Source of the DNA: Diploptera punctata
Taxonomy: Eukaryota; Arthropoda; Insecta; Blattodea; Blaberidae
Length of the DNA: 64,000 bases
Direction: 5' to 3'
Assembly (NCBI GenBank): GCA_030220185.1
Contig: JASPKZ010000425.1
Span: 1,265,501-1,329,500, forward strand
The translations under genes were made by a program, and so were the position numbers. Below, in pieces: positions 684-61,627 of this stretch; the stretch's first letter is position 1, and each line of letters opens with the position of its first letter. The notes beneath the pieces are model-generated. The model was not told the origin of the DNA, ran no database searches, and saw only the letters and a list, made by a program, of their open reading frames with translations.

Positions 684-875
684 CTGTATTATATTTTCCA
701 CGATCTTCACTCTTTCATTTTGTGTAGGCATACCTATGTATATTGTCTCAAAATGTGATAGCGCATTAGCATCAATTTTATCCAAATTGGGAGTTATTCC
801 TATTACTAAAACATGATCATTTCTTCTATTCATTTCACGAATCAATGGATTTCTAAAAAAGTAGATGTTTCCATT
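684..875 (-). CDS. Divergent AAA-ATPase, gene copy A, exon 4 (partial gene)
   Basis: A 64-codon phase-0 exon. The acceptor is TTTCTAG (AG at 876-877) and the donor is CAG/GTAAATG (GT at 682-683). It encodes the sensor-1 to second-region-of-homology segment of an AAA module: DHVLVIGITPN sits where classical AAA proteins have a GATN motif, followed by IYIGMPTQNERVKIVENIIQ, equivalent to the 'PDxxxRxxIL' stretch. The arginine-finger motif (RPGRFD-like) is absent; ANALSHFET stands in its place. The exon is fully open. The gene reads leftward and the next exon lies outside the window. Paralogous to 54394-54585. Family identification is from motif order, not from a search. Confidence 0.75.
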
Positions 876-1006
876 CTAGAAAGAAAAAGTTATAATTAAT
901 ATATTTAAGAAGTATCACTGTGAGATTTTTTAAAATGTAAACATTAAAAATTAGAAAATTCACCGAATGCTATGAAGTGGGAATTACAACGTTTATACTT
1001 ACTTAC

Positions 1007-1265
1007 TCACTGGCACTCTTGAACCCATAGGTTCATGGCCACATGGACATAAGCTCCCCATAAATCCCTATCCTGAGCTAATGCTTTCCAATCATTCCCT
1101 GTATAATCTACTTCCCTCAAATCATAGTTAATGTTACTCTCCCACGTCATTCTTGGTCTACCAACTGGGCGTTTTCCCTCAGGTTTTCCTACAAGAAGCT
1201 TCCATGCAACTCTTTCATTCCCCATACGTTCCACATGCCCTGTATCACAACATATATAGAGAAAA
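1007..1265 (-). pseudogene. Non-LTR retrotransposon 3' fragment (GKRPVGRPR family)
   Basis: The minus strand reads GHVERMGNERVAWKLLVGKPEG, then KRPVGRPRMTWE and DWKALAQDRDLWGAYV. This is the C-terminus of a non-LTR polyprotein that recurs at 19064-19702, 44826-45400 and 58519-58666. The element's 3' end lies at the left edge and is a short TAAG/TGAG-type repeat (tacttacttactcactgg on the plus strand). Strongly 5'-truncated; only the extreme C-terminus remains. Confidence 0.8.
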
Positions 1266-1432
1266 AATTTCATTTAAATCGGCACTGCTCTGGTAGCTCA
1301 GTTGGTAGAGCACTTGGTCTAGAGAACCAAGGGTCCCGAGTTCAAGTCCCAGTCTGAGTGTATAATTTTTCTCTTCAAATATGATTTATCCATCATTGAG
1401 ATGTATGAAATGAATAATAAATACATCAAAGA
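1262..1432 (+). repeat. tRNA-derived SINE, copy 1
   Basis: Contains a tRNA-like head with A box (TAGCTCAGTTGGTAGAGC) and B box (GAGTTCAAGTCCC) at about 1290-1355. An anticodon-like stem CTTGG/CCAAG carries an enlarged 9-nt loop. The tail carries ttctcttcaaatatg and atgtatgaaat. The acceptor stem does not pair, so this is not a functional tRNA. A second copy lies 110 bp downstream. Confidence 0.75.
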
Positions 1433-1544
1433 AGCCATACTGGCATTTATAATGTAATGTATAGTTCCCAAATATGTCTTCTTAATAAAGGAGTTGACAT
1501 TTGCAAAGATAGAAGCAAAGGCTTCATAGCATTCGGTGGGTGGG

Positions 1545-1737
1545 AATTACAAAGTATATAGAGAAAAATTTGCTACTTGCTCCAGTAGCTCAGTTTTTAG
1601 AGCACTTGATCTAAGAACCAAGAGTTCCGGGTTCATGTCTGGGTCTGAGCGTATAATTATTCTCTTCAAATATAATTTATCCATCATTGAGATGTATGAA
1701 ATAAATAATAAAAACATCGAAATCATAACTATATTTA
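1545..1737 (+). repeat. tRNA-derived SINE, copy 2
   Basis: Same family and same orientation as 1262-1432. The head is agtagctcagtttttagagc, the B-box region ggttcatgtctggg is mutated, and the tail (ttctcttcaaatataattta) is the same. The tandem spacing suggests either local duplication or two insertions at one preferred site. Confidence 0.75.
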
Positions 1738-1738
1738 A

Positions 1739-1860
1739 ATAATGACTTTTGAGCAAACAGTTTAATTCTATTCGTTAAATAGTCCTATCAAATGCCACTC
1801 TTGATTTCCAAATCCTCTAGATAATTTGCAAATACTCGTGGCATTTCTTATGATAAAGAA
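1739..1860. repeat. Palindromic MITE-like repeat, copy 1
   Basis: About 120 bp nearly identical to 7645-7770. The core is an imperfect inverted repeat: AATGCCACTCTTGATTTCC and its partner ending ACTCGTGGCATT flank a short spacer. Small non-autonomous element; superfamily not determined. Confidence 0.6.
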
Positions 1861-1941
1861 ATTGTTTGAAAAAAGCATTTCCTGTAAGAGCACTCGATTG
1901 AATGCAGGCTTTCATGGTAGGTAATCATATTATAAAGAGAT

Positions 1942-2061
1942 TCTGGACTATGTGGCCATGGGTCCATGATTGGTATTTCTTCCAGATGTTTCTCCCTCTG
2001 CAGTTGAGGGAGAAATATCTGAAAGAAACACCAGTCATGGATGATGGCCACATAGTCCAGA
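1942..2061. repeat. Long imperfect hairpin
   Basis: Two arms of about 57 bp (1942-1998 and 2005-2061) are reverse complements with scattered mismatches. The outer ends are TCTGGACTATGTGGCC and GGCCACATAGTCCAGA, and the apex is CTCCCTC-tgcagtt-GAGGGAG. No coding potential. Confidence 0.8.
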
Positions 2062-2181
2062 TTACAATAGCACTCAATGCCTGAATTTCTGAAAATTTAC
2101 CTTCTGCACAGAGTACAAAAATATATGAGGCAGTCAGAGGACAAGGGGTACAAGTGACTTTTTTAAAAAATGAGTTAATTG

Positions 2182-3175: not shown

Positions 3176-3239
3176 AAACAAAAAGCATATCATACATACT
3201 TACGACTGAAAAAAAGAAGAATCTTACGAAGAATATAAA

Positions 3240-3611: not shown

Positions 3612-3624
3612 ATATTGTGTAAAC

Positions 3625-4688: not shown

Positions 4689-4739
4689 ATGATATTGTGT
4701 AAACTATGAATACTTCATTTAATTAATATATATTGGCAG

Positions 4740-5996
4740 ACCTATGAGATTCCAACCAGTTGGAAAACAGCAATTGTGAAGAATATATTCAAAAGAGGAG
4801 ACCGGAGAAATTGCGAGAATTACAGAGGGATTAGCTTAATGAATACTGGCTACAAGATATATACGAAAATAATAAATAATAGATTGAGAAACATAACAGA
4901 AGTAATAATAAATGAAAATCAAAGTGGATTCAGAAAGGGAAGGTCATGTATAGACAATGTCTTTACACTAAAACAACTGATAGAAATGAGAAGAGAACAT
5001 AACTTAGAAACTCACATAGGATTTATAGATTTGGATAAGGCCTTCGATCGAGTAAACAGACAAAAATTATGGGAAATATTACGAATGAAAGGATACCCGC
5101 TGTGCCTTGTTGAAACAATAAAGAAATTATATGAAGACACAAATATAATTATAGATACCGGATTCAAAAGAACAGATAAAATCAAAACAAATACTGGATT
5201 ACGACAAGGATGTAGTTTATCACCCACTTTGTTTAATATATATATATATATAGACGATATTTTAAACAAATGAAAAGTTTTAGTGAATCCCAGATTAAGA
5301 ATAGATAAGAAAGTGTGCATAAATAATCTTCTATTTGCTGACGATGTAATCATAATACAGAAAAATGAAGACGACTTACAGAAATCTATGCATGCATTAA
5401 ATGAAATATGTAAATTATATGATCTAAAGATTTCTGTAAGGAAAACGAAGACCATGGCTTTTAGAGGAAGAGATTCAGTGAGATCCAAAATTATTTTAAA
5501 AAATCAAAGTGTAGAACAGGTGTCTAGTTTCAAATATTTGGGCTGTGATGTTGGCTACAATGTGGAAAGAGATATTGACTCCAAAATAAATAAATTTCAG
5601 ACGGTGTGTGGAACAATACAGAGAACATTAAAAAATAAAATTAGAAAAGAAACCAAGATAAAAATGTATAATGTTGTGACAGTTCCCACAATATTGTATG
5701 GATGTGAAACTTGGGCTCCAGTAAAAAAACAGAAGGATAGAATACAGACGGCGGAGATGAGCTTCCTAAGACAAGTAAAAGGATGTACAAGACTTGATAG
5801 AATAAGAAATCAGGATATAAGAAAAGAATTGAAAGTACAGCCTTTATTGGATAAGGTCATGAATTACAGACAGAAATGGATTTATCATATGGATGGAATG
5901 AGTAAGGAGAGATATCCATTGTTAGCAAGAAATTATCAAGCAAGAGGAAGACGTGATGTTGGAAGACCTAGAAGACATTGGGCTGATGCAGTATGA
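4740..5996 (+). pseudogene. RTE reverse transcriptase and C-terminus
   Basis: The block to 5273 carries NYRGISLMNTGYKIYTKI, NQSGFRKGRSCIDN, GFIDLDKAFDRVNR (motif A with its Asp) and GLRQGCSLSPTLFN. A TATA microsatellite expansion shifts the frame just before the next block. The block from 5283 carries NLLFADDVIII (catalytic FADD box), the YLGCDVGY region, LYGCETW and the C-terminal GRRDVGRPRRHWAD. Catalytic residues are all present, so the copy is broken only by frame errors. The function in the family is target-primed reverse transcription. Confidence 0.88.
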
Positions 5997-8042: not shown

Positions 8043-8162
8043 CTCTGCATGGTCTAGAGCGCAGATAAGACGCTCGATATTTTCTATAAACATTACAGTA
8101 GGAGCAACACTTCTTGCCTTATTAAATATCGATTCCACACTTTCAGTGACAGAATGCCCATG
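8043..8162 (-). CDS. Divergent AAA-ATPase, gene copy A, exon 3
   Basis: A 40-codon phase-0 exon between TTTTTTTTTTAG and GAG/GTATAA. It encodes the segment from the pore-loop follower to Walker B: ESVESIFNKARSVAPTVMFI and then ENIERL. In active AAA proteins this is 'hhhhDExD'; here the DE pair is replaced by EN, which should abolish normal ATP hydrolysis. It is nonetheless completely open. The 40 bp of intron upstream of the acceptor is almost identical to that upstream of the copy B exon at 57315-57425, while the exon itself is far less similar. Confidence 0.78.
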
Positions 8163-8281
8163 CTAAAAAAAAAAAGTTTATTCTTAAATCTTGGAAATTT
8201 AAGACATATATGGAGTTATAAAACAGAATTGAAATTAGAAATAAGGTGCCATTCTTCATTTTTAAATACATGAAAAAGATC

Positions 8282-8476: not shown

Positions 8477-10169
8477 CTTCTTCTTCTTCACTTCCTGGTT
8501 TAGGCAAGAGTTGCCTGTTCCGTCTTCACTAATACATCTAAGACCATCTCTTCCGAGGACGTCCGACATCTCTTCTTCCTCTTGGAAAATAATGGAAGAT
8601 TTTATTTGGTAATCTTCTTTCTTCCATTCTTTCTACATGTTCTTTCCACTGTATCTTGTTGTTAAATATCTTTTCTTTTATGGAGTAGATCTGCAGTTCT
8701 TCACGGATATCCTCGTTTCTTATCTGGTCCATTCTAGTGCAGCCTTTTACTCTCCTTAAAAATTTCATCTTGGCTGCTTGGATTTTATTTTCTTGTTTGG
8801 TAGTGGTAATCCAAGATTCACTCCCATACAAAAGGACAGGGACAGCCATTGTTTTATAAAATTTTAATTTTGTTTGTTTATGGGCTTTATTATTCAATGT
8901 TCTATTTATTGTACCACAAATAGCTTGAAACTGATGTGTTTTGTGTTCAATATCTTTATCATACCCATAGCTGATGTCACATCCTAAATATTTAAAGTGA
9001 CGATACTTGTCAATAATTTCGTCTCTAATTACTATTTTTGCACGCAGAGTATTTCTTCCACAAAATGCCATTACTTTTGTTTTACTTATTGAAATTTTAA
9101 AATTATAGTCGCTACATATTGCATTTAGTTTGTAAGCAGCCAATTGTAACAGATCTTCATCATGGTGTAGTAAGACCAAATCATCGGCGAAATGTAAGTT
9201 ATTAATACTTGAGTTATTGTTCAATCTAAGGCCATTGTCCATTATAATTTTCCATTGTTTCATAATGTCGTCGATATATATATTAAAAAGAGTAGGTGAT
9301 AGACTACACCCTTGTCTAACTCCTTGATTTATTAAAATTTCTTCTGACCTTTTTCCATCAGTTTTTATCACAACTTTAGTTTCTTCATATAAGCCTTGGA
9401 CTGATCTTATTAGATGGTGTGGATATCCTCGTTCCTTCATTATTTCCCATACTATAGATCTATTTACTCTGTCAAAGGCTTTTTCAAAATCAATGAACAA
9501 CAAGTATGTTGGCAGGTTAAATTCTCTTCTCTTTTCAATTAGTCTCTTTATAATAAACACATTATCACTACAGGATCTTCCTTTTTTGAACCCTGCTTGT
9601 TCTTCTTCTAAGAGTGTGTCAGATATCTTCTTCAATCTATTATTTATTATTTTTGCATATAATTTATAAGTGGAGTTCAATAAGCTGATACCTCTATAAT
9701 TTTTACTATCTAATCTATTTCCTTTTTTGAAGAGGGATATGACTTCACCTATCTTCCAATTTTCAGGTATTTTACATGTCTTCTAACATTCGTTTATTAA
9801 GTTTAATAATCTTATTTCTGCAAATAAACCTGCATACTTTATCAGTTCATTGTTTATACCATCTATACCTGGTGCTTTTCTATTTTTCATTTCTTTCAAT
9901 GCCTCTCTCATTTTGCTTAGAGTAATTCTGTCTATTTCTGATTTATTTTCACTTTCAGAAGGGCGTTCTATAACTAATTCTTCTTCGTTACACCATAATT
10001 CTCTGTAGTGATTATCCCATGCCTTCAGATCAATGGTATTTAGTTTTGCAGTATCTTTTTCTGTTGTATTTAATTGTTTCATTACTTTAAATGCTAACGA
10101 TTATCTGCCATGTACATCGTGCTCTATTTTGGAAATAAATCTTTCCCAGGAATCTTTATGAGCTGTTCG
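8477..10169 (-). mobile_element. 5'-truncated RTE retrotransposon, young copy
   Basis: A perfect 12-bp target-site duplication AGATTTGAACAT lies at 8465-8476 and 10170-10181. The 3' end on the minus strand is a GAA repeat. The coding part reads through the RT and C-terminus with only isolated stops, so it is one of the less decayed copies in the window. It lies inside intron 2 of AAA gene A, in the same orientation as the gene. Confidence 0.9.
8538..10167 (-). pseudogene. RTE reverse transcriptase (almost intact RT, missing endonuclease)
   Basis: Begins inside the linker (TAHKDSWERFISKIEHDVHG). Two stops follow, then MKQLNTTEKDTAKLN and NRKAPGIDGINNELIKYAG, one stop at about 9783, then an uninterrupted 380-residue stretch. 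That stretch carries NYRGISLLNSTYKLYAKI, LLFIDFEKAFDRVNR (motif A Asp), GVRQGCSLSPTLFN, NLHFADDLVLL (catalytic Asp pair), FKYLGCDISYGY, LLYGSESW, GCTRMDQIRNEDIREELQ and the terminal GRRDVGRPRKRWS. All catalytic positions of the RT are retained. The endonuclease is lost by 5' truncation, so it cannot be autonomous. Confidence 0.9.
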
Positions 10170-11195: not shown

Positions 11196-11351
11196 CTCTA
11201 CACTAAAAGTACCTATTTTTACATCCATGAAAGTTTTTACTGCTTCTAGATCAGCCGCACCTTTTGCTAACATATATTTCTCGTACTCAGCGGGGCCGTA
11301 GAGAAGAATTCCTGTTTTTGATTCTGAATTGGTAGATGAGTTGGCATTTGA
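11196..11351 (-). CDS. Divergent AAA-ATPase, gene copy A, exon 2
   Basis: A 52-codon phase-0 exon between ACTTCCAG and GAG/GTAAGG. It encodes the Walker A region: TGILLYGPAEYEKYMLAKGA aligns with 'GxLLxGPPGCGKTxLAKAxA', but the P-loop glycines and the GKT are gone (AEYEKY). It then gives VKTFMDVKIGTFSVE where the family has 'FISVKGPELL'. Nucleotide binding in the normal way is unlikely. A 33-bp stretch of intron just upstream is identical to the intron upstream of the copy B exon at 61463-61627. Confidence 0.78.
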
Positions 11352-11439
11352 CTGGAAGTCGAAACAGAAACAAAAATATTAAGAATAATTAATAATAGAT
11401 CAAAATGTTAAAATATCAACCTGCAGGAAGAAGAAGACA

Positions 11440-11893: not shown

Positions 11894-12709
11894 TGTATAA
11901 ATTTGGTTGTTTAAATACTGATTTTTTTTTGTTTGGTTGTGATGCCCATATCACATACTCATCTGCAAATAATGAGCAATTGGCATATTTTACTTCAGTA
12001 ATTTAGATGAGAGATCATTTATCATGATATTAAAAATAGCTGTACTTGAAACTGTTTCTTACAAAAATGTAGCAATCGGAATTATTTATAGGAAAGAATT
12101 TGTGGAAGTCAGTGAAGAAGACATTAAAAAGGGCAATGAAAAAAAGAAAAAGAAAATTAAAAATCTGAGTAATCTTGAATTTTTCATTTAATTAAATGAA
12201 AATAAAAAAGTTTTATGTGATTTTCATATTTATTAAAATATAAATTGTTTTTTTTTGTAAAGAGTCGTACATTTTTTTTCTTATGGTATAATTTTTTTAA
12301 AAATCTTACTCCCCTTAAATATGAAAGTAGGACTTTTATAGTGGTAACAAATTATGCAATGAAACCATCAATAAGTTTAATTATGAACCTTGCTTACCCA
12401 ATTCAGTAGGGAGTCCTAAAGTCTTTTACAATAAATTAACAGAAATTCAACATGGATGGGACAAGCATGTGCAATAATTGTAGGTATTTAGGAAGTAATT
12501 TAATGGGGATAGGCATGATAGTCTAGGGATGGCTTTCATGTGAGAAAAATATTGTTCTGAATGCCATAGTAATGAGAAATAAAATTGTGCTCCTTCACCT
12601 TATGTGATTATGAGACTTTATGGACATAGTGAGGACTAATTATTGGGTGTTCTTAAATACTTTAGTGAATAACAATTTTGGTTGGGGAACAGAAGGGAGC
12701 ACTATATAT

Positions 12710-13294
12710 ACAGGGTGTTTCGAAATTCAATGATCAAACTGCTAGGTATGATGCAGAAGGCAAAAACAAATATATTTTGTTAAATAACCATGTGTCGGAA
12801 ATTCATACGTATTGAGTACTGAGCATGCGAAGATAGTACGAGAGTGGAGGAGATATTAAATGAGCAATTATTTTTACAAATCCATTACACTAAATACTGT
12901 ACTTGATTTGAAGTGTGCAGTGCATTGTGATGCCATATTTCGACACTGAGTAAGTAAACAGCACTAGTAACTGTGTAACGGACTAAGCATCAACATGGAA
13001 CGCTACTCATGGAGAGAACTGTGAGACATGCACTTTGTCTATGGTGCGGCTGAGGGTAATAGTCGGCAAGCCCAGAGAATGTACCGCGTACGTTACCCTG
13101 CACGAAGATGTCCGGATTATCGTACATTTACTTCAATCCACGATCGACTAGCACATTTCTGCACTCCCGTATTACTTTCGCATGCTCCGTACTCAATACG
13201 TACGAATTTCCGACACATGGTTATTTAACAAAATATATTTGTTTTTGCCTTCTGCATCATACCTAGCAGTTTGAGCATTGAATTTCGAAACACC

Positions 13295-13298
<4 letters not shown>
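12710..13298 (+). mobile_element. Internally deleted DNA transposon with about 135-bp terminal inverted repeats
   Basis: Both ends begin ACAGGGTGTTTCGAAATTCA and the arms match for more than 130 bp (about 12710-12850 versus 13165-13298, few mismatches). It sits in a TA microsatellite, consistent with TA target duplication. The centre keeps the N-terminus of a transposase: MERYSWREL, then a stop, then DMHFVYGAAEGNSRQAQRM and CPDYRTFTSIHDRLAHF. This is the N-terminal helix-turn-helix region seen in a large insect mariner/IS630-type group (DUF4817-like). The catalytic domain is deleted. Confidence 0.8.
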
Positions 13299-13340
<42 letters not shown>

Positions 13341-13555: not shown

Positions 13556-13656
13556 CTCAATTAAATTTTTAAGTTGATCTTTCTGTTCTTGTAAGCCGAT
13601 TATGTTGTCCCAAGTTGATACATTTTCTGCCATTTTGTGTGCTGATTATTTATTTT
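13556..13656 (-). CDS. Divergent AAA-ATPase, gene copy A, exon 1 with start codon
   Basis: The exon begins after TTTTATTTCAG, has 23 nt of 5' UTR with an in-frame TAA, then ATG at 13633-13631 and 26 codons up to GAG/GTATC. The peptide MAENVSTWDNIIGLQEQKDQ continues LKNLIE and matches the N-terminal edge of a CDC48/VCP-type AAA module ('VTWEDIGGLEDVKxEL'). The upstream in-frame stop argues that this is a genuine start and that copies A and B are separate genes rather than the D1 and D2 halves of one protein. An untranslated first exon must lie upstream (to the right); its position is not recognisable. Confidence 0.75.
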
Positions 13657-13769
13657 CTGAAATAAAAATCAAAAGAGAAATCAGTAATGTTAATAAAAAC
13701 TAATTTTGATATAATATTTCAAATTAACATTTTCCAGAATTGGACATAGTTTTATTTTAGAAAGAAAAT

Positions 13770-13985: not shown

Positions 13986-14404
13986 AGATGGTGTATTCAG
14001 TATTACATTGACACGCAGAGCATTAATTTTTCTTTTTAACAAAAAAAAAACATAACCATATAAAAAATCTGCAAAACGGTTGTCTAAAACTGGAAAGAGA
14101 ACCTCAATTTGTCTCTATTGAGGACTTAAAGGAACTGGCCTGATAATAACATAGTGTCCAGTCCCTACCCTCTTGTGGTACAGCTGTTATCACGTTATTG
14201 TAAACAATGGTAAAGAGATTTTTTCTTTAAATTTCAATCATAGTAATAGCTTTAGTTTCTTAATATTAAATTAATAAATAATGCTATAGCTGTGTGGAGT
14301 CCCATCTTGTAGTTTTAATGTAGAAGCTATTCAATATTTATTTGTGAATGATACTAGTAAAATTCATGACAAAATTCCGTTGAGGTATTAAGTCACAATA
14401 ATAA

Positions 14405-15605
14405 TTTTTAAAAATAAAATTATAAAATAGTCAGCTTGCAGGTCCGTGTCCTCAACTTAAGATGCTCTGTAGGCCTTTTGGGACTAGTCCCATCATCAGT
14501 AGAAAGAAGTAGGTCTGTATGTGTTGACCTTCGTTGAAGCACGGATTTTGTTGTGATTATTCTGTATAGAGGATTGTGTATACTGGATACGTTCTCGTTC
14601 AGAAATAAGTCGTTATCGATTTCTCTCAAAATCGCAGTTTCTTCCAATATATTTATCTTTGCCAGTATGTTTTCTTTGTATAATACTGTAAGGGCATTAT
14701 CTATGTTGTGCATTTGGTGTCCTGCTTGAATTACATGTTTTTCGTAACTTGACCTTCCTCCAGCATAGACAAAATGTCTAAAATGCTCTTTAAATCTGAC
14801 ATTAAAGCTTCTGCTGTTTTTTCCAATGTACAATTTTTTACAATCTGTACACATTAATTTGTATATTCCTTTATTGTTAAATCATTTTTTCTTCAATATT
14901 GTTGTTTATTAAGTTGTGTAATTTAGTTCCTTTTCTGTATGCTATATTTATATTTTTGTCAAGCTTTTTCAATGTGATTCCATGAGAACAATTGTGTTGC
15001 CTTTGTCTGCTTTCGTGTGTATGATATTATTGATCCTAAGCTTTGACTTAATGTGGGATATGTTTCTAAGTATTTGTTTTTCGGAACTGTTTATTGTTGG
15101 TGAAATTTCTTTAATGGATTTAGCAGCTTCATATCTAGCATATTCTTTATTGTCAATGTATAGTCTGTTTATTGCAATCTCACTTTCTATTATTAAATTT
15201 TGCTTAACTCTGTTCACATTATTTATGGGAAAGTTGAATTTATATCCCACATTGGTTTGGTTTCCTACATGTCAGTATGAGGCAGAACGCTGACCACGGA
15301 CCACTCAAATGACATCTATACGAAAACAAGTGTAACTAAATTAGTATGGTTCAAATTCTTCCCTGTAGGGGTGCCTAAAAATCTCTGTTAAGGGAAACAT
15401 GGGCTTACAAGATACAAGAAGATCTAATATATTGGCTTCTTGTTTGTTTAATTTTCATTTCGTAAGATTTAAGATTACATTATCAGATATGTTGTTAGGT
15501 TTGCCATTTTGTTTGGCATTTATTTTGTGTTTTTCGGCTTTCAATTTTTTAATCTTATTGGTTAATGTTTCGTATTTAGTTTTTATAATTTTATTTAAAA
15601 AAATG
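14405..15605 (-). pseudogene. Penelope-like element, copy 1, RT core deleted
   Basis: The minus strand holds the N-terminal part (INNVNRVKQNLIIESEIAIN ... SKLRINNIIHTKADKGNTIV, up to 14990). It jumps directly to a region near the C-terminus and then to the GIY-YIG endonuclease: GIYKLMCTDCKKLYIG, RSFNVRFKEHFRHFVYAGGR, then KHVIQAGHQMHNIDNALTVL. The reverse transcriptase palm expected between them is missing. An unrelated stretch of about 140 bp interrupts the N-terminal part near 15265-15405. It is oriented head-to-head with the plus-strand copy that follows. Confidence 0.8.
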
Positions 15606-15640: not shown

Positions 15641-18120
15641 TTGAATTTTATATCTGCAGCCAGTCAGGCTAAAGTGAAATTTAAATATTTTAACAGCAAA
15701 CTGACTCTACACAAAATGATAGCAAACATATATTTCAATAAAGAATGCTTTAAATACAACATCAGACCTAATTATGCTAAAATTAAAATTAAAGACAAAA
15801 GTTATACAGCATTAAAAACACGAAAACAAGCAGAAATTAAATTGCTAAAAAACGAAATCAGATTCCTTTATATAAAGAAACAAAACATTAATAACCAATT
15901 ATAGGCCTACTTTTATTCACAAGAAGCCAGCTAAACATTTGGTGAATGTTAGATAATAATAGAAAACCAAATACATGAAGAAATTAACAAAATTATGGAA
16001 ACTAAATATGAAACATTAAATAATAAGATTAGAAAATTGAAAGCTGAAAAACACAAAATAAATGCCAAACAAATTGATAAACCTAACAACATATCTGATA
16101 ACAGAATCTTAAATCTTACGAAATTAAAATTAAACAAACAAGAAACCAATGTATTAGAAATGGGATGTAACTTTCCCATAAATAATGTGAACAGAATTAA
16201 GCAAAATTTAATAATAGAAAGCGAGATTGCAATAAACAAACTACTCACTGACAATAAAGACTATGCTAGATACAAAGCCGCTAAAACCATGAAAGAAATT
16301 TCACCAAAAATAAACAGTTCCGAAAAACAAATACATCCCACATTAAGTTATAGGTTAGGAGCAATAATATTATACACACAAAAGCAAACAAAGGCAACAC
16401 AATTGTTCTCATGGAAAAGGAAGAATATATAAATAAAACCAAAGATTTCATATGGGAAAACAACTTAAAAAAATTGAGAAGGACCCAACTGGAAAATATA
16501 ACAGATCAATAAAAGAATTAAAATCAAGTCCTTTAGTTATCAACACAAAAAATAATAATAAAAACAAATTCATATATAAGAAGTGGACGAACAACATTCC
16601 GTCACCACCTACAATGAAGGTTCTTTCAAAAATAAAAATACACAAAAATAATATTCCAATGCAACCAATTGTTAATTGCATAAACACTCCCAATTATAAA
16701 ATGTCTAAATTCATTGCCCAGTAGATAAAAGGAAACATCAAATTAGATAATCAATTCTCAATTAAAAATTCATATAAATTAACAGAAAAACTACATAATC
16801 TAGAAGTCAATAATAACACTAAAATGACGTCTTTTGATATAAAAAAACTTATACACCAACATCCCAATAAATGAAACTTAGACATAATAAAACAAAAACT
16901 AAGGGACAAAAACCTGGATAATAACTACTAAACCAATTAAATAATATTATGAAAACAATAACACAACCAAATAATTTCTAATTCAATAATGAACTCTTCA
17001 TCCAAGAAGACTGAATCCCTATGCCCCACTTCTGGGATTCTAGCAGAAATATTCCTGCAGGAGTTGGAAAATAAACACCTTAAAGAATTAATTAATGAAT
17101 TTAACATAAAATTAATTACAAGATATGTAGATGACGTCTTGGTAATTTTGGACAATGAAAATAGAAAAGACAAAGAAATCTCGCAGGAATTAAACAATAT
17201 GCATAACAAAATTATTTTTACCCAAGAAGCAGAAGTAAATAATCGTATTAACTATTTGGATTTAATAATAACAAAACACTTCAGTACTAACAAGATAGAA
17301 ATTGGCATTTATCGAAAACTGACAAGTAACACACTAGCTATAAACAATAGATCTAGACATCCTTTCCAACATAAAATATGTACGTTTAAGAGTTTAATAA
17401 ATTGAATGCTAAAACTTCCTTTAAATAAAAATAATTATAATAAAGAATTAAACACATGGCTCAAGTAAACGGCTATAATAAACAAATAATAAATAAACAC
17501 CTAAATAAACAAAAAAGAAATAATAATATTTCCAACACAACCAAACTTGAGAAGGAATCCAACAAAAATAACAAGAACTGGATAATTCTCACATATACAG
17601 GCAAAGAAACATTAAAATTAGCCAACACATTAAAAAGCTTGACAAAAATAGAAATATAGCATAGAGAAGAAAAAAAAAATTACACAACTTAATAAACAAT
17701 AATACTGAAGAAAACAATGATTTTAATAATAAAGGAATATACAAATTAATGTGTATGGATTGTAAAAAAAATTACGTTGGAAAAACCAGCAGAAGCTTTA
17801 TTGTCAGATTTAAAGAGCATTTTAGACATTTTGTCTATGCTGGAGGAAGGTCGAGTTATGAAAAACATGTAATTCAAGCAGGACACCATATGCACAACAT
17901 CGATAACGCCCTTACAATATTACACAGGGAAAACATACCGGCAAAGATAAGTATATTGGAAGAAATTGTGATTTTGGGAGAAATTCATAATGATTAATGA
18001 CTTATTCCTGAATGAGAACATACCCAGTATACACAATCCTCTGTACAGAATAATCACAACAAAGTCAGTGCTTCAATGAGGGTCAACAAATACAGTTGAG
18101 GAGACGGACCTGCAAGGTGA
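15641..18120 (+). pseudogene. Penelope-like element, copy 2, with RT and GIY-YIG
   Basis: In order: an N-terminal basic segment (KNEIRFLYIKKQ, to 15904), the conserved INNVNRIKQNLIIESEIAIN block (16180-16240), a thumb/finger region with IPSPPTMKVLSKIKIHKNNI, RT motif A (MTSFDIKK, about 16830), and the palm block LITRYVDDVLVILDNEN with the catalytic YVDD (about 17115). Next come INYLDLIITKHF and a GIY-YIG nuclease (GIYKLMCMDCKKNYVGKTSR, about 17735-17800). Several frameshifts and stops make it non-functional. It is the same family as copy 1 and supplies the palm that copy 1 lacks. The 3' ends of both share a short GGACCTGCAAG-type sequence. Confidence 0.82.
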
Positions 18121-19702: not shown

Positions 19703-21348
19703 TAAAATCTTAAGAGAGATAAATAAAGATGAAAAGGATAAAGAGCGATAAATAAAGATGAAAAGGATAAACTTAATTTTAATCCAATTCATGAAAAAAA
19801 TTGGCTACAATACTATAAAGAATTATGGAGCCATAATGACAAAAAGAAAGTAACATATTAATTATGGAAAGTGATTTAAGTGTTGATTCCATAACAATAG
19901 AAGAATTTACTGAAACAATAAAGAGCTTTAAAAACAAAAAATCACCTGGAATTGATAGAATCAATATCAAACTTATTAAATGCGGATCTCAAGCTCTTAC
20001 ATATAGGATATTAAACTTCATAAATATCTGTTGGCAATATGGCTGTGTACCTGAAGAATGGAGTGAAGCTATTGTTATCCCTATACATAAAAAGGTGACA
20101 GACATAACCCAAATAATTGCAGAGGTATAAGCCTTTTGGGAACATGTAGCAAAATCTATGCTAAAATATTATCTAGAAGAATCGGAAAGATAAGTAATGA
20201 AATTATTTCAAATGAACAACATGGGTTCAGAAAAGGCCGCTCTACAATTGATTGTATCTTTTCACTCCAACAGTTGATAGAAAAGATAAGAGAATTTAAT
20301 CTTGAGACACACATATTATTTATCGACTATGAGAAGGCTTTTGATAAAATTATGCGTTCTAAATTATGGGATATACTAAATAATAAAGGATATCCACCTC
20401 ATCTAATTAAAGCTATAAAAAGTTTATACGAAAATACAAAAATTCGTATAGATAAAGGAAATGGTCCTGGAGAAACTTGCGTAGAAATCAATAGTGGACT
20501 TCGACAAGGTTGCCCTCTTTCGCCCAATACTTTTTAATATATATTTAAATGATATCATTAATACATGGCAAACTTTTTTAGATGAACATTTTATGATAAA
20601 CGGTACAAAAATGAACTGTCTTTTATTCGCAGATGACCAGATCATTGTAGCTTCCTCAGAAAATCAATTACAAAGATCAGTTTATAAATTATGGAAACTA
20701 ATAAACGATTATAATTTAAATATATCAACAGAGAAAACAAAGTCAATGGCATTAATTGGAACTCAGCATAAAAGGACAAAAATTGTAATTGGAGCAAACA
20801 TAATTGAACAAGTAACTTGTTTCAATTATCTGGGATGCATGATATCATACCAGCATAATTTGGACATGGAGAAGAAATTAGGGAGATTTCAACAGATATG
20901 TGGTTCAATAAGAAGATATTTGAGAAATAAGACCACAAGGGAAACTCAATTAAAATTTTACAACACAGTAGCCGTTCCAACATTAACATATGGGTCTGAG
21001 ACTTGGCCTTTAACGATCTCTGATAAAAATAAAATTGAGACAATAGAAATGAGATTTCTCAGATCAGTTGCAAGTGTACCTCTAAGAGATCAAAAGAGAA
21101 GTCAAGATATCAGAGATGAACTACAAATCTATAATATAAACGAGAGAATACACACAAATAAACTTAATTGGTTTGAACATATACAAAGAATGCCAAATAA
21201 TCATTTATCAAAACAGCTACTTCATTATAGGCCTCTAGGCCGAAGAAATGTAGGAAGACCAAAACGTCGTTGGAAAGATGACCTGCACCTGCAGCATATA
21301 GTGCATCGGGGAGCGGAACAGGCCCATACCTTGACGATGATGATGTAA
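19703..21348 (+). pseudogene. RTE reverse transcriptase, second half of interrupted copy
   Basis: After a short local duplication (AGATAAATAAAGATGAAAAG repeated at 19717 and 19749) the ORF reads NKKSPGIDRINIKLIKCG, a stop at about 20130, then GFRKGRSTIDCIFSLQQLIE and HILFIDYEKAFDKIMRSKLW (motif A) and GLRQGCPLSP. A one-base frameshift near 20520 precedes NCLLFADDQIIV (catalytic box), YLGCMISYQHN, LTYGSETW and LGRRNVGRPKRRWKDD. Catalytic residues are kept; the copy is dead through frameshifts. Confidence 0.87.
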
Positions 21349-36227: not shown

Positions 36228-37015
36228 GTAACGGAATCTTTCAACGCGATTTTCACCCACTTAAAATCATTGGATCGACTTGAAACTTTGTATACTTGTA
36301 AAGGACCCGTGACAATGCAATAATTTCATTTTTTTCTAAAATCCTGGCCAGAATCATCAGAAAATAAAAAAAAAGTGTCTTTGTATCTACGTAACGGAAT
36401 CTTTGAACACGATTTTCACCCACTTAGAAATATTGGATCGACTTGAATCTTTGTATACTTGTAAAGGACCCGTGACAATACAATAATTTCATATTTATTT
36501 TCTAAAATCCTGGCCAGAATCATCAGAAAATAAAGAAAGTGCCTTTGTATCTTTGTAACGGAATCTTCGAACACGATTTTCACCCACTTAGAAACATTGG
36601 ATCGATTTGAAACTTTGTATACTTGTAAAGGACTCGTCACAATACGATAATTTCATATTTATTTTCTAAAATCGTGGCCGGAATATTCAGAAAATAAAAA
36701 AAGTGTCTTTGTAACGGAATCTTTGAACACGATTTCCACCCACTTAGAAACATTGGATCGACTTGAAACTTTGAATACTTATAAGGGACCCGTCACAATA
36801 CAATAATTTCATATTTATTTTCTAAAATCCTGGCCAGAATCATCACAAAATAAAAAAAAAGTGTATTTGTATCTTTGTAACGGAATCTTTGAACACGATT
36901 TTCACCCACTTAGAAACATTGGATCGACTTGAAACTTTGTATACTTGTAAGGGACCCGTGACAATACAATAATTTAATATTTTGTTTCTAAAATCCTGGC
37001 CAGAATAATCAGGGA
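36228..37015. repeat. Tandem array, five units of 156-166 bp
   Basis: Units start at 36228, 36391, 36555, 36711 and 36877 with GTAACGGAATCTTT and contain ACGATTTTCACCCACTTAGA and GGATCGACTTGAAACTTTG. The other copy of this module (from 47692) has a single unit, so the array was amplified here. It is preceded by TTATATTAGCTTGACC in both copies. Confidence 0.9.
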
Positions 37016-37068
37016 AAAAAATGAAAACTGGTATAATAGGTTGCGGACTTGTCGACTTTTTAGTCAAT

Positions 37069-42438: not shown

Positions 42439-43630
42439 TAATCATCATCAACAATCACGGATTAAGCCCATGTGGCTTGTTCCGGTCTCATAGATTCTCA
42501 TTCAAAAGTTGGATCCATCTCTTCTTCGGTCTACCAACATTCCTGCGTACTTTCGGTTTGTATTTAAGTATAATTTTGGGAATGCGATCATCTTCCATTC
42601 TCTGAACATGTTTTTTCCATTTTTTTCTAGATTCTTTTATTCTATCTAAGAGTTTAAAGATATTTAGCTCATTTCTAACATCTTCACTTCTTCTCTTATC
42701 TAGAAGTTTGCAACCAGCCACACTTCTCAGAAATCTCATTTCAGCTGCTTCTATGAACCAAAATTCACTACCATATAATAGTAAGGGAACTGCCACTACT
42801 TTATCAAATTTTAGTTTTGTTTCTTTTCTTGTGCTTTTAAATATCCTTTTGATTGTTCCACATATATAATTAAATGTGTTAAGTTTGTTAAATAGATCTT
42901 CATTTTTAAAATAGGAGATTTCATAACCCAGGTATTTAAAATGGTTCACTTGTTCAATGGGTTTCCCCTCCAGAATTATTTTAGCTCTTACGGTATCTGA
43001 TCCCTTAAAAGCTAGGATTTTCGTTTTACTTATTGATATATTGAAATTATATTTCTGCATAATGTTATTTAACTGAAAGAGCGATTTCTGTATACCATCT
43101 TCCGAACTAGACATTAGAACTTGGTCGTCTGCAAAAAGTAAGGTATCTAACATCTTATTTCTTATTTTGAAATGTGAGTCCGAGTTTATCTGCCAATTAT
43201 ATATGATATTGTCAATATAAATATTAAAAAGGGAGGATGAAAGTGGACATCCCTGTCTTACACCTCTATTTATTGTTGCTGTTATATTGTTTTTATTTTT
43301 GCCTCTAGTTTCTATTGTTATTTTATTTTCTACATATAGACTTTTTATTGCCGTTATTAGGTGCTGAGGTACTCCTTTCTCTTTCATTATATTCCACAAT
43401 TTATTTCTGTTAACTTTGTCAAATGCCTTTTCAAGATCTATAAATGCCCTAAAAGTTGGTAGATTATATTCTCTATGTTTCTCAATTATTTGATTGATAG
43501 TGAAAATGCAATCTGAACACGATCTGCCTTTCCTGAATCCATTCTGAGCTTCTAGAATAATACTTTCCATAATTACATTTAAACGATTTTTCAATATAGT
43601 TGCATACATTTTATAACAGGTACCCAAGAT
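42439..43630 (-). mobile_element. 5'-truncated RTE with intact 380-residue reverse transcriptase frame
   Basis: A 12-bp duplication ATTTTGCAACAA lies at 42427-42438 and 43631-43642; the tail is ATGATGATTAT on the minus strand. A single frame without stops (42488-43630) carries GTCYKMYATILKNRL, NGFRKGRSCSDCIFTINQII, FRAFIDLEKAFDKVNRNKLW (motif A), GVRQGCPLSSSLFN, TLLFADDQVLM (catalytic Asp pair), FKYLGYEISYFKNEDL, LLLYGSEFW and RRNVGRPKKRW. Endonuclease and RT fingers are lost by truncation at insertion. The absence of stops makes it the youngest RTE copy in the window. Confidence 0.92.
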
Positions 43631-43644
43631 ATTTTGCAACAAAC

Positions 43645-43945
43645 ATTAACAAATTTCTCTTAATTAAAGTTCTCCATCGTTCTCTGCCCTCTGTGTCTTC
43701 ATCTGTTACACCAAATTTCTTCACTGGATTTTGAATGTTGTTCTTCCAGGTTGTTCTTGGTCTTCCTTTTATGTTCCTTCTTTCAATTTTCCATGCATAG
43801 ACAGCCTTTGATAGTCTTCCATCCTGCATTCTTCTTACGTGTCCATACCATTTTAGCCTTCTGTGTTCAATCTCATTCATTATAGGCCTATTTCTTTCTG
43901 CATTCATCCATTTTCTAATTTTTTCCAGTCGAGATTTAGAAAGAT
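43645..43945 (-). pseudogene. Non-LTR C-terminal fragment split by the RTE insertion
   Basis: Reads NRPIMNEIEHRRLKWYGHVR, RMQDGRLSKAVYAWKIERRN, then IKGRPRTTWKNNIQ and RWRTLIKRN. Its downstream side is cut by the RTE copy at 43630. Confidence 0.8.
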
Positions 43946-47315: not shown

Positions 47316-47880
47316 TCTAATATATAAAAATGAATGTTTGTTTGTACTTTATGCGCGGCCATACCGTTGAACTGGTTGTGATGGGGTTTTCTGCAAAATG
47401 TTCAGGAGATTCCCGGGATGAACATAGGATATGAGAGTTGTGATACTCAACTCCTACACCCTTAAAAATCACCAGTTGTAGTGGAAAACGTGAAAAAGTA
47501 GTTCTTTGGACGATTAAATTACTTACGCTGCCTAAGCCATAACAAATACACAACATTAATGTACACAGAATTGAATATTTCAAAAAGCCCTTCAAAAAAG
47601 TCTACGACAGCATGTGTTTATCTCTTACGGATAACTCACAATAATCATTTCTACACGCTTTTATATTAGCTTGACCTGTACCTGTAACGGAATCTTTCAA
47701 CACGATTTTCACCCACTTAAAAACATTGGATCGACTTGAAACTTTTTATACTTGTAAAGGACCAATGACAATACAATAATTTCATAAATTGTTTCTAAGC
47801 ACACCTGGCCAAGGTCATCAGGACATCAAAAAATAAAAACCGGTATAATAGGTTGTGGACTTATCGACTTTTTAGTCCAT

Positions 47881-47972
47881 CGTTGTAAGAGCCCAATTGG
47901 TACAGCGGTGGACTGTAGTGGTATATAGTTTCAGTAATCCATAGGTCGCTGGTTCAAATTCGGCCTGGAGGA
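47881..47972 (+). repeat. tRNA-Tyr-derived sequence with intron-like insert, copy 2
   Basis: GGTACAGCGGTGGACTGTAG (anticodon GTA), a short insert, then ATCCATAGGTCGCTGGTTC, which is closer to a real tRNA-Tyr than copy 1. The D arm is mutated (CCCAATTGG) and the acceptor stem does not pair fully. Confidence 0.7.
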
Positions 47973-48282
47973 TTCTTTTTTTTAGAAGAGTATTACTTTT
48001 AGCTCATACTACAATAGTATCAAATTTAAAATATATTTACATTTTTATCTTATTCTGTAAAATATTAATGATAATTTTGTAAACTTACCACATTGTAATT
48101 TATCCAAAAAATATGAGAACGATACGATTAACTGTAAATATTTTTCTATATTAAAATATTCAAAAATATAATAATTTTAGATAATAATAATTTAAAAGAA
48201 CATATAATTATATTCTTGCTTAACACTAAAAATATCGTAAGCAATACATTTTTCATGGGATTCCAGTTTATGACAATCAATT

Positions 48283-54393: not shown

Positions 54394-54585
54394 CTATGTA
54401 ATTTTGTTTAAAATATCAGTTCTTTCAGCTGGAGTTGGTATTCCAATATAGAATTTAAAAATAAATTGAGCTCTTGGAAGTATAATCTCTGGACAATTGG
54501 ATGCTCCTATTAAGAACACAGTCTTTCTTTTAATATTCTTCATCTCGGACATCATCGCAGACGCTATAATTCTTCTAAATCTACT
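54394..54585 (-). CDS. AAA-ATPase-like, gene copy B, exon 4, ending in a stop
   Basis: Exactly as long as its copy A counterpart (192 nt) between CTTATTAG and TAG/GTAAATG. It encodes FRRIIASAMMSEMKNIKRKT, then VFLIGASNCPEIILPRAQF and YIGIPTPAERTDILNKIT. The sensor-1 GATN is GASN here. The arginine-finger segment is RAQFIFKF and has lost the RPGR pattern. The last codon is TAG where copy A has CAG, so translation would stop exactly at the splice junction. Either B encodes a shortened product or it is becoming a pseudogene. Confidence 0.75.
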   Translation of the reverse strand, partial: SRFRRIIASAMMSEMKNIKRKTVFLIGASNCPEIILPRAQFIFKFYIGIPTPAERTDILNKIT

Positions 54586-54739
54586 CTAATAAGAAAAAGT
54601 TAAAATTAATATTTTTGTTATAAATGGGTTTATTCCATCATAGGCTTTTTGGTAGCATAATAGGGTGATACTAAATTAGAAATTAAAATAATGTTCATTA
54701 TTTGCTATATTCTATGTATTAATTGGAGAGTAGTCACTG

Positions 54740-55690: not shown

Positions 55691-55719
55691 CACGTTTACC
55701 TGTAAATGAATCAAATTTA

Positions 55720-57314: not shown

Positions 57315-57425
57315 CTCATCGTTTGGAATTAAAGCATCAATCTCATCGAAGAATATGAGACAAGGTGCAGAACTTTTAGCTTTCTCAAAAACTTCTTCCA
57401 CAGCTAGTAAACATTCACAAAAGTC
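57315..57425 (-). CDS. AAA-ATPase-like, gene copy B, exon 3 (Walker B)
   Basis: A 37-codon phase-0 exon between TTTTTTTTTAG and GAG/GTAAGA. It encodes [20 protein letters not shown], then [12 protein letters not shown]: a canonical AAA Walker B (hhhhDEID), unlike copy A. The family's 'GESE' at its start is replaced by DFCEC. Intron sequence on both sides matches that around the copy A exon 8043-8162 closely. Confidence 0.85.
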
Positions 57426-57559
57426 CTAAAAAAAAAAGTTTATTCTTAAATTTTGGAAATTTAAGAAATATATGGAGCATTGAACTTTTATAGGAAAAAA
57501 TCACTATGAGGTTTAATTTAGGGTTAAATTAAAATGATTCATACCACTCCTCATATCCA

Positions 57560-58666: not shown

Positions 58667-58694
58667 TATGAGGTTTAATTTAGGATAAAATCAA

Positions 58695-59160: not shown

Positions 59161-59164
59161 ATTA

Positions 59165-60060
59165 CCCTATTAAGACAAGCACACTACAAAATAAATAGAG
59201 GAAAAAATAAAATTCAGGAAATCCATTACCATCTATTGAAACACAAGTTTCAAAAAAAAAATTCAAAGAGTTTAATATAAGATTGGTACCGAAGAATGAA
59301 TATAGTCTTCCATCCATAGTAATTCTGCCCGAAGGCAGGTCCTTCACTGCAATCATAGCATTTGCATGCTATGCCTGCTAGCTTTACTAGGGTATTGTAG
59401 GGGTGGTAGCTTCCCGTTGCTGTCCACACCAGTGAAGAATTATAATGATGACTATATGATTTTGGGGGCCATTTGGGCCTTAAAGTTTTCCTGACATTTG
59501 TTGTACAGTGAGAAAGAACCCCGATAAAAACCTTCACCCAGAAAAACTGCACTGACCGGGGATTGAACCCGGGCCTGCTGCGTGACAAATCAGCGGACAA
59601 TATAGTCTTAATAACCAATTAAAATGAAAACAATTGAAGATGAAAACAAATCAGGAATTTATCAGGTCAATTGCAAGGATAGTGATAAAATTTATATAGG
59701 TAAAACAAAAAAGAAATTTGAAAGCAAGGGTGAAATAACATGTTAGAAATGTCAAAAATATGGTGATGTGGAAATGTCAGCAGTTGCTGCTCATGCTTGG
59801 TTCGAAAAACATCTAATTAAATCAGAGGATAATCTAATTAAACAAATCGATAAACAAAAGGAACTCACGGTTTGGGAAAAATCCATTCAGAAAAACAAAG
59901 AAAAACTTATGAACTTTGAAATTCCCATGAATCATGACCTGATCCAGAGGTTCATCGGTCCACCAACAAAGGGAAGAAGTCGTTCTGCCGATCGACATAA
60001 CATCAGTAGGCAAAATGGTACTGAAGAAGGGTTTACTATGAACCCAAAAATATGATCTAC
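59165..60060 (+). pseudogene. Penelope-like element 3' part (family 2), inverted copy
   Basis: The plus strand reads ENKSGIYQVNCKDSDKIYIG, then KTKKKFESKGEITC, a stop, MSAVAAHAWFEKHLIKSEDN, LIKQIDKQKELTVWEKSIQK, NHDLIQRFIGPPTKGRSRSA and DRHNISRQNGTEEGF. It faces the minus-strand copy head-to-head at about 59165 and is interrupted by a SINE. Confidence 0.8.
59310..59598 (-). repeat. tRNA-derived SINE, GGATGGAT-tail family
   Basis: An 11-bp duplication AATATAGTCTT lies at 59299-59309 and 59599-59609. It lies inside the plus-strand PLE copy and so is younger. Confidence 0.9.
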
Positions 60061-60149
60061 CTAGAAGATAGATATGAAACATTTGATATTTAATTTTAGT
60101 AAGTGATATTTTGAGGTTATTTTAATTATATTATTATTAGTTTGATCAT

Positions 60150-60503
60150 CTTACCTCAATATTAATGTTGATTTGTTCTTGAACATGTTTAAAAACAATT
60201 CTGTTTTATGGTCTGCTTGTCCAGACTGGTTTGACTTATGTTGCATACCCTTGATGTCGATGTCAGCTCCATCCTGTGGTTGGCCAAAGAACCTCCAAAC
60301 AAGGTCATGCTCCGTCGGTATTTCAAAATTTTTTCCCAAATAGTCAGCTCTTTTGTATTTTCTAACTGTTTTAATAATTTAGTGTCTCAATTTATATTAT
60401 GTTTTTCAGACCAAACATGAGCAGCAACTGCAGATTTTTCTATGTCCCCATTTTTAATATTTCTTATGTGTTCTTTGGTTCTAAGTATTAGGTTTCTTTT
60501 TGT
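60150..60503 (-). pseudogene. Penelope-like element 3' part (family 2), copy
   Basis: The minus strand reads KRNLILRTKEHIRNIKNGDI, EKSAVAAHVWSEKHNIN, a stop, LLKQLENTKELTIWEKILKY. The 3' end contains the AACATTAATATTGAGG sequence that forms the palindrome at 62432-62632. Confidence 0.75.
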
Positions 60504-60855
60504 TTATATATATATATATATAAATAATTGGCTGTTCCTACACAACAACGCCCCCACACATTGTTCTGTCCTTGTCCAAGAGGAACTGGCAAGACAACAG
60601 GTGACAGTTTTGCCAGACCCTCCGTACGCACCTGATCTCACATGATGCGATGTTTTCTCTTTCCTTGCATGAGAGCAATCCTATATGGGCGTAGATTTCA
60701 TTCTTCCGAAGACATCATGACTGCTACAAGAGAAGCCAAACGGGACATTCCTGCCAACTTCTTTCAGTGGTGCTTCCAGCAGCTATATCAACGTTGGCAA
60801 ACGTGGATATCATCCAATGGTGACTATTTTGAGGGAGGATGTGGTTCTGTTTAAG
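60504..60855 (+). pseudogene. Mariner transposase C-terminal fragment
   Basis: Reads NNWLFLHNNAPTHCSVLVQE, ELARQQVTVLPDPPYAPDLT, then in another frame GRRFHSSEDIMTATREAKRD, IPANFFQWCFQQLYQRWQTW and ISSNGDYFEG. This is the 'HDNAPxH ... PPYSPDL ... NGDYFEG' end of a mariner (DD34D) transposase. The second catalytic Asp is Asn (HNNAP); the last Asp is retained (APDL). Preceded by a TA microsatellite. Confidence 0.88.
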
Positions 60856-60959
60856 TGTATGCCTAGTTATCGGCATCTTGTGAGACATCCAGATTCTTAT
60901 GGGTGCCTACCCTCCAGGCGTAAAGTCTCAGAACTTAATGACTGTATCAGTATGTACAA

Positions 60960-61240
60960 CACTACTGTATGCCTTTTCAAAATGAATGAAGGCAGTGTAT
61001 AGTTCTGCTCCATATTCCCATTTCTCCTCAATAAGCTGTCTTACACAGAAGATTAAATCCACCGTTTTTTTCGGCTTCTGAAGGAATGTTGTTCTTCTCT
61101 TAAGTTTTATTTTCTATTACTTTATTTAATCTTCTGGCCAAAATTCTATCATAAATTTTAAAGCAGAGTTTTATCTCTATAATTTGTACATAACATTCTG
61201 TTTACCTTTTTGTAAATTGGTTCAATCATGCTTTTTTGTC
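60960..61240 (-). pseudogene. Reverse transcriptase fragment of a non-LTR element
   Basis: The minus strand reads TTFLQKPKKTVDLIFCVRQL, then IEEKWEYGAELYTAFIHFEK and AY: the 'FxxGxSTxDxIFxxRQxxEK...FVDFxxAYDS' stretch around motif A. His replaces the motif A Asp. Confidence 0.65.
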
Positions 61241-61462
61241 AAACTTGTATATAAAATCAAAGCTCAATTTCTAAATCAAAATAAAAAAAAAGACAATATT
61301 AATAAGAACAGAGGAAACTTACAGACAGAACAATTCATTTCCATGCTTTAATTAATTACACTTAGGATGATAACATTTTTAATAACGCATATTATAAAAA
61401 TTATGTCAATAAAGTAGATCAAATTAAGTCAAGCAGTCATTAGCAACATTTTAATTCCTTAC

Positions 61463-61627
61463 CATATTTATTATCGCAGGTCCCTTCACTGATATGAAAT
61501 TCATTCCTGCTTCATGTGCCACAGATTTTGCAAGATGTGCTTTTCCACATCCTGGTGGGCCAAACAACAGAGCAGTTGAACAAGAACAAAGACCTTTAGA
61601 AAACAATGCAGGATTTTCCAACATCTT
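61463..61627 (-). CDS. AAA-ATPase-like, gene copy B, exon 2 (Walker A)
   Basis: A 55-codon phase-0 exon between AATTCCAG and ATG/GTAAGG. It encodes [20 protein letters not shown], then [20 protein letters not shown]. This is a clear AAA P-loop, but the Thr/Ser that binds Mg is Ala (GPPGCGKA). 'NFISVKGP' is the hallmark of CDC48/VCP/NVL second AAA modules. Its first exon, equivalent to 13556-13656, was not found before the right edge. Confidence 0.85.

Follow-up and report, generated by a model that had tools for sequence, protein, structure and literature searches.

In a 64,000-nucleotide stretch of the Diploptera punctata genome (the window; contig C424, JASPKZ010000425.1 of assembly GCA_030220185.1), two tandem AAA genes, A and B, resemble each other more closely at their splice flanks than in the intervening exons. 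This raises the question whether the exons have been driven apart by positive selection, as the first-pass annotation of the window had proposed. The A/B pair itself turned out to be too diverged for an answer, and further copies elsewhere in the genome were used instead. The favoured explanation, to which we assign a probability of about 0.65, is that A and B belong to a lineage-specific family of duplicates derived from the D2 domain of NVL, the coding sequence of which would subsequently have come under diversifying positive selection. D. punctata is a blaberid cockroach which, according to published abstracts, bears live young.

Layout of the tandem genes

Both genes are located on the minus strand. 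B runs from 61,627 to 54,394 and is upstream of A, which runs from 13,656 to 684. The exon pairs A2/B2, A3/B3 and A4/B4 are positioned as first annotated, with lengths that are multiples of three. A putative exon 1 was assigned to both genes by means of the flank upstream of its acceptor, which is again shared; in A, this flank is common to B and to a further copy, D, and the open frame joins A2 in phase 0.

13556..13656, minus: A exon 1, predicted; ATG at 13633, coding MAENVSTWDNIIGLQEQKDQLKNLIE
13657..13722, resuming at 14046-14110 past an insertion, minus: flank upstream of the A exon 1 acceptor; 85% identity to B 66868-66929, with related sequence in D
11352..11393, minus: A2 intron 1 acceptor flank, 40/42 identical to B
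11196..11351, minus: A exon 2 (A2), degenerate Walker A, GPAEYEKYM
8163..8215, minus: A3 intron 2 acceptor flank, 48/50 identical to B and 51/52 to D
8043..8162, minus: A exon 3 (A3), Walker B altered to EN
876..906, minus: A4 intron 3 acceptor flank, 28/32 identical to B including one exonic base, just beyond chance
684..875, minus: A exon 4 (A4), 192 nt, followed by GTAAATGTTA
equivalent of 66,734-66,867, just beyond the window edge, minus: B exon 1, predicted from the shared acceptor flank
61628..61669, minus: B2 intron 1 acceptor flank, 40/42 identical to A
61463..61627, minus: B exon 2 (B2), Walker A GPPGCGKA; first ~45 nt hypervariable
57426..57477, minus: B3 intron 2 acceptor flank, 48/50 identical to A
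57315..57425, minus: B exon 3 (B3), pore-loop 1 position and Walker B FFDEID
54586..54616, minus: B4 intron 3 acceptor flank, 28/32 against A, one base exonic
54394..54585, minus: B exon 4 (B4), 192 nt; last codon TAG directly before GTAAATGTTA

As annotated before, A4 and B4 are of equal length (192 nt). B4 ends in an in-frame TAG, at the place of which A4 carries CAG. A protein search with copy D returned two annotated D. punctata proteins, which provide independent gene models. L9F63_009346 is the exact join of B exons 2-4, ending at this TAG, and L9F63_025146 joins exons 2-4 of another copy, E. Base shuffles of exons 2-4 of A, B or D were stop-free in 0 of 20,000 cases, indicating that coding has been kept.

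Family relationship to NVL

The first-pass annotation had regarded the genes as CDC48-like chaperone ATPases, a designation that has to be corrected to NVL-type, apparently restricted to D2 and with catalytic residues lost. The spliced exons of B gave NVL as top match in the PDB (9bji, E 2.3e-56). A is only distantly AAA, with an archaeal VCP-like protein as first PDB match (6.2e-18) and NVL at 8.3e-12; the Pfam AAA domain was found in both genes (A at 1.4e-11). The tie of A to NVL is thus given by the agreement of intron sites and acceptor flanks, not by the protein match. Judged by these features of their sequence, A and B are paralogs of the D2 domain of NVL, an AAA ATPase of ribosome biogenesis.

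The complete assembly (3.12 Gb) was searched with patterns of the acceptor flanks, allowing up to 3 mismatches, and with the same patterns written backwards as controls. The exon 2 pattern occurs at six genome sites, namely A, B, C (contig C3532), D (C6048), E (C8592) and F (C7346), and the exon 3 pattern likewise at six, A, B, D, E, H (C9990) and F; both backwards patterns gave 0 genome matches. The further members which the first-pass annotation had proposed to look for thus exist on other contigs, with C, D, E and H as copies and F as the NVL gene. The latter assignment follows from the sequence of F together with D1, exon 4 and lid matches on the same contig. Exon 2 and 3 boundaries as well as acceptor motifs of F agree with those of the A-E family. 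As assembled, exon 3 of NVL comprises 125 nt and is not a multiple of three (about 5098-5225 of the C7346 segment read), owing either to an assembly error or to a real change; NVL is expected to be essential. B and C, as well as E and H, may be haplotype pairs.

No D1 or lid exon was found around A, B, D or E among the 86 matches listed for a query of NVL D1, D2 tail and lid; the listed matches on C424, C6048, C8592 and C3532 are confined to exons 2-4, and a diverged D1 could escape such a search. Queries with pieces of NVL and VCP likewise detected neither D1-like nor lid exons in the vicinity of A and B, and a search for a third family member within 177 kb of C424 gave none. A protein-database search with A returned 18 candidates, none at E <= 0.001. 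Regular expressions for Walker and SRH motifs found no match in the window, the motifs being too degenerate or split, and the window exons were absent among the 20 of 207 candidates scored in a genome search with Pfam AAA. VCP/CDC48 (C8847) and PEX6 (C5441), which share the AAA fold and its motifs with the copies, were ruled out as parents due to their different exon boundaries and flanks.

Two side observations were made on the other contigs. Long intron-free AAA frames of 276 to 719 aa are located on C462 (1683715, 2312693, 2417495 and 2420882) and C6963, and these are possibly bacterial contigs, or a symbiont or contaminant in the assembly. Intron 1 of copy D contains, upstream of exon 2, a tandem array of ~52-nt units (1.7-3.1 kb of the segment read), and a single related unit is situated on the B side at 66653-66713.

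Divergence of the young copies

B and D each come from a megabase contig, and kilobases of their introns can be aligned. Outside the exons they differ at 484/5989 positions (8.1%), and in exons 2-4 at 81/465 (17.4%; 31/162, 15/111 and 35/192 for exons 2, 3 and 4). The B/D nonsynonymous rate (dN) of 0.218 stands against a synonymous rate (dS) of 0.139 and an intron rate of 0.110 with the flanks as reference or 0.074 with a longer reference. For the pairs B/D, B/E and D/E, dN/dS amounts to 1.57, 2.11 and 1.44, and the ratio of dN to the intron rate (flank references) to 1.99 (p 6e-6), 1.65 (p 0.005) and 1.47 (p 0.04). Against the longer introns, Fisher tests of the nonsynonymous changes gave 3e-12, 9e-10 and 0.006, whereas silent changes do not depart from the introns in B/E (p 0.46) and D/E (p 0.86) and are slightly high in B/D (p 0.049). 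A comparison of B and C, available for exon 2 only, gave p 0.07 against introns. A test of dN against the intron rate in further paralogs, which the first-pass annotation had named as decisive, therefore comes out in favour of selection for B/D; B/E and D/E point the same way, with the reservation that the E contig is noisy.

A site model for B, D and E (146 codon triplets) placed 26% of the sites in a positive class with omega 9 (2dlnL 29.8, p 3e-7). Seven of the 17 sites with posterior >0.9 fall into the first 18 codons of exon 2, which precede the P-loop, and four into the first 16 codons of exon 4. Three more occupy the place of the NVL arginine finger, one is the pore-loop 1 position in exon 3, and the others are the last codon of exon 3 and codon 33 of exon 4. 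Over the beginning of exon 2, B and D disagree at 25 of 45 aligned bases, whereas none of 5,848 overlapping windows outside the exons reaches more than 17 per 48. This segment still aligns with NVL at near-equal length.

Exon 1 provides a further contrast. In its first 50 nt, before the ATG, B and D show 1 difference, and in the 81 nt after the ATG 12 nonsynonymous and 0 synonymous differences together with one in-frame gap. Fast change thus begins at the start codon and not at the splice site, as expected from selection on the protein rather than from exon-wide mutation. Silent differences at conserved residues are few (B/D 3/100, B/E 2/94, D/E 7/107) and, since the part of exon 1 before the ATG is also kept, a hypermutator acting on coding sequence was ruled out for B, D and E. 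Indels in the exons of B and D are multiples of three. Together, these data support coding-specific diversifying selection for B/D and, more weakly, for the pairs with E, as far as sequence comparison can indicate it.

Several points weigh against this interpretation. Tested against dS alone, dN is significantly raised only in B/E (p 0.023; B/D 0.096, D/E 0.18), and a single-omega model gives 1.73, with p 0.06 against 1. The site model was run with custom code on three sequences, one of which is E, and on an alignment with indels. Since the substitutions are clustered, the Fisher tests, which treat sites as independent, give p-values that are too low. The divergence at the starts of exons 3 and 4 is reached in 72/5,893 and 42/5,848 non-exon windows, respectively, and within the hypervariable segments, which were defined post hoc, the proportion of silent differences (pS) in B/D is also raised (0.24 against 0.045 elsewhere). 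Against B and D, E shows ~50 gap openings per kb (B/D 12.8), its exon 4 carries a frame change and its exon 1 acceptor has no AG, so that E represents either an error-rich contig or a dying copy. Exon 4 of C contains many small indels. B/D is the sole pair on megabase contigs, and C and H may be haplotypes of B and E. Moreover, the silent divergence of A is at odds with this interpretation.

The A/B pair

The first-pass annotation started from the likeness of A and B next to their acceptors, and this likeness is real. A 33-nt stretch before exon 2 is identical (11361-11393 and 61637-61669), and the ungapped matches on the acceptor side extend to 40/42, 48/50 and, including one exonic base, 28/32 for exons 2, 3 and 4. 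Among 19,181 other AG-ended 45-mers from both strands of 177 kb, none equals the match of B to the A acceptor at any of the three exons; the best of them score 32.0, 17.5 and 17.0, compared with 35, 36 and 18.5 for the true sites. The score of 32.0 would be the B2 site itself shifted by three bases, since no third site was found in the 177 kb. Non-homologous acceptor pairs such as A2 with B3 score at most 13.5. Likeness of the acceptors is therefore far beyond chance for exons 2 and 3, and only narrowly so for exon 4. A generic splice consensus as its cause was ruled out for exons 2 and 3 by the cross-pairs and the genome patterns, an argument with little force in the case of exon 4 and the donors. 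The shared donor motifs noted earlier, GTAAATGTTA at exon 4 and GTAAGGA at exon 2, are present but carry little weight against chance, with 27, 24 and 1 of 18,005 GT sites matching equally well. U12-type introns, considered for a TTCCTTAA-like motif, were dropped after comparison with the U12 donor consensus, the donors being GTAAGGA, GTAAGAT and GTAAATG.

Conservation of the A/B introns as wholes, as first assumed, did not hold. In introns 2 and 3, the only ungapped matches outside the flanks that score at least 17 are a piece of 23 nt in intron 2 and a further piece of 25 nt that is not colinear, and the reversed control gave one match of this score. The encoded peptides are alike mainly at AAA landmarks, in agreement with the earlier description (48 of 147 aligned residues identical). 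Over 146 codons, Nei-Gojobori counts gave pS 0.63 and pN 0.48, corresponding to dS 1.39 and dN 0.76, and at conserved residues 26/44 silent positions differ. Silent sites are thus saturated and the A/B pair permits no test of selection. With dS exceeding dN and only splice-adjacent intron sequence kept, the reasoning that took introns as neutral and exons as selected fails for A/B; positive selection, first proposed for this pair, finds its support in B/D instead.

Alternative explanations

Part of the puzzle posed by A is that exons and flanks of one gene give different ages. Over the exon 2 and 3 flanks, A differs from B at 4/93, from D at 3/93 and from NVL at 12/87 positions, with B/D at 3/92. 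In the sequence preceding exon 1, 30/306 positions differ between A and D (90% identity, partly repeat-derived) and 55/292 between A and E. Silent sites of A are saturated against every member (26/44, 25/43 for A/D, 26/42 and 11/22). In ungapped motif blocks, 15/27 to 17/26 silent positions of A differ from B, D and E and 7/15 from NVL (B/D 1/50), with pN (0.35-0.41) below pS (0.64-0.69). The exons of A look ancient and its alignable flanks young; constraint on the flanks, homogenisation and exon-only change each explain part of this, and exon replacement, or separate histories of exons and flanks, may be involved.

One explanation that we consider unlikely is an old duplication without positive selection on A/B, in which about 50 nt before each acceptor, comprising branch point and pyrimidine tract, were held by purifying selection. 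The saturation of A, including motif blocks with pN below pS, and the unalignable interiors of the A/B introns fit such a history, as do the B/D flanks of exons 2 and 3, which differ less than the neutral ~8%. Over all three exons, however, the B/D flanks (8/124) are not clearly slower than the non-exon sequence (484/5989), and the flanks of NVL differ from B (14/86) about as much as silent sites (9/47). Moreover, the flanks of A group with B and D instead of NVL, the ~306 nt shared by A and D upstream of exon 1, though in part derived from repeats, extend beyond a splice signal, and the B/D pattern is left unexplained. Gene conversion or unequal exchange, by which non-coding flanks of an ancient A were homogenised with those of the B/D type while exon conversions were selected against, would account for old exons next to young flanks in tandem genes of the same orientation. 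This seems rather improbable, because the similar islands lie right at the acceptors, next to unalignable interiors which should convert as readily, and because A is as near to D on another contig (8/125) as to B (9/125).

The copies could also be decaying pseudogenes, with exon divergence merely relaxed. This agrees with the Walker A Thr to Ala change, the loss of the arginine finger, the TAG shared by B, D and E at the end of exon 4, the frame changes in E and C, and a stop which the annotated B exon 1 frame meets in D, though before the presumed start ATG. We hold it to be equally improbable, since relaxed exons are expected to change at the intron rate and about twice this rate was seen; exon 1 of B/D has its 12 nonsynonymous and 0 synonymous differences after the ATG, the B/D exon indels are in frame, and exons 2-4 of A, B and D have no internal stops. 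A last proposal applies to A: all of its coding positions, silent ones included, would have been rewritten at several times the rate of the flanks (silent differences 25/43 against 30/306 for A/D) by an exon-only process, such as the return of spliced RNA to the gene through error-prone copying, combined with selection for new protein surfaces. This is given very little credence.

Predicted proteins and mode of divergence

In B, C, D and E the threonine of Walker A is replaced by alanine. Walker B retains DE in B, D and E and reads EN in A, and none of A, B, D and E has a recognisable arginine-finger stretch (RPGR). The loss of the Walker A threonine and of a recognisable arginine finger, combined with the stop at the end of exon 4 common to B, D and E, suggests weak or dead ATPase pieces. 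The B and D proteins are probably of this kind, with ~185 residues composed of a short N-terminal exon and the large AAA part of D2.

According to the selection model favoured here, the NVL gene was duplicated and gave rise to the small lineage-specific family A-E. As far as found, the copies would have kept the large AAA part of D2, consisting of a short pre-P-loop exon and exons 2-4, and would have inherited intron sites and exon 2 and 3 acceptor flanks from NVL. After duplication, diversifying selection would have acted on coding and not on non-coding DNA, as suggested by B versus D and, less cleanly, by E. The changes appear to gather ahead of the P-loop, in the first codons of exon 4, in the arginine-finger stretch and at one pore-loop 1 site, whereas the Walker A and B core can still be recognised. 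The copies would no longer work as ATPases but might act by binding, most likely to NVL or its partners or else to a target that itself changes fast. They could serve as decoys, regulators or poison subunits, and an arms race may have altered their exposed surfaces.

Repeats in the window

Apart from the two genes, the window contains several repeats. Two GIY-YIG-type open reading frames (KGIYKLMCxDCKKxYIGKTSRSF-like; 14420-14881 and 17665-17997), 88% identical and inverted, are presumably those of Penelope-like elements. Diverged non-LTR reverse transcriptase frames lie at 4710-5996, 8538-10100, 20091-21348 and 42488-43645, with mutual DNA identity of ~64-67%. A tandem array of ~160-nt units (88-91% alike) occupies 36215-37021, with a matching block ~11 kb away at 47648-48068. 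Near A exon 1, a foldback-like inverted repeat of 147 nt (12703-12849 and 13159-13305) is 95% identical.

Comparison with known systems

Genes in which coding sequence evolves faster than the introns are known chiefly among secreted weapons such as venom and plant-feeding effectors. If the selection model is true, the present case would place an arms race at the ribosome-biogenesis machinery, driven inside the cell or the germline of a live-bearing cockroach. Since copies, parental gene and neutral reference are available in one genome, a direct test is possible. Among the papers listed by literature searches on insect NVL duplication, the Diploptera genome and selection, and introns outlasting exons, none dealt with these genes.

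The nearest relative is the D2 domain of NVL/Rix7 (PDB 9bji and 6mat). The copies resemble it in the best match of B, the D2 sequence of which is nearest to NVL, and in the exon 2 and 3 boundaries and acceptor motifs of NVL from the same genome. They differ from it by fast exons, by the absence of a D1 and N-terminal part or a lid as far as found, and by the loss of an intact Walker A, with its threonine, and of the arginine finger.

With regard to the mode of divergence, two systems are comparable. The viperid three-finger toxins for which the term ASSET is used are reported to have intron segments of more than 85% similarity next to exon segments of which some share 12.5-50% (PMC2474615; PMC2711939). 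The toxins, like the present copies, combine radically altered exon segments with similar introns and a kept fold. In contrast to the toxins, the NVL duplicates are not venom, B and D appear to differ through base substitutions and frame-preserving indels at corresponding sites rather than through unrelated segments, and the introns of A and B are not conserved as wholes. For genes of small secreted salivary gland proteins of the Hessian fly, non-coding sequence is reported to be more conserved than coding sequence (PMC2955719). Both are insect families in which non-coding sequence outlasts coding sequence; the Hessian fly genes encode small secreted proteins, whereas the D. punctata copies are pieces of an intracellular, nucleolar ATPase.

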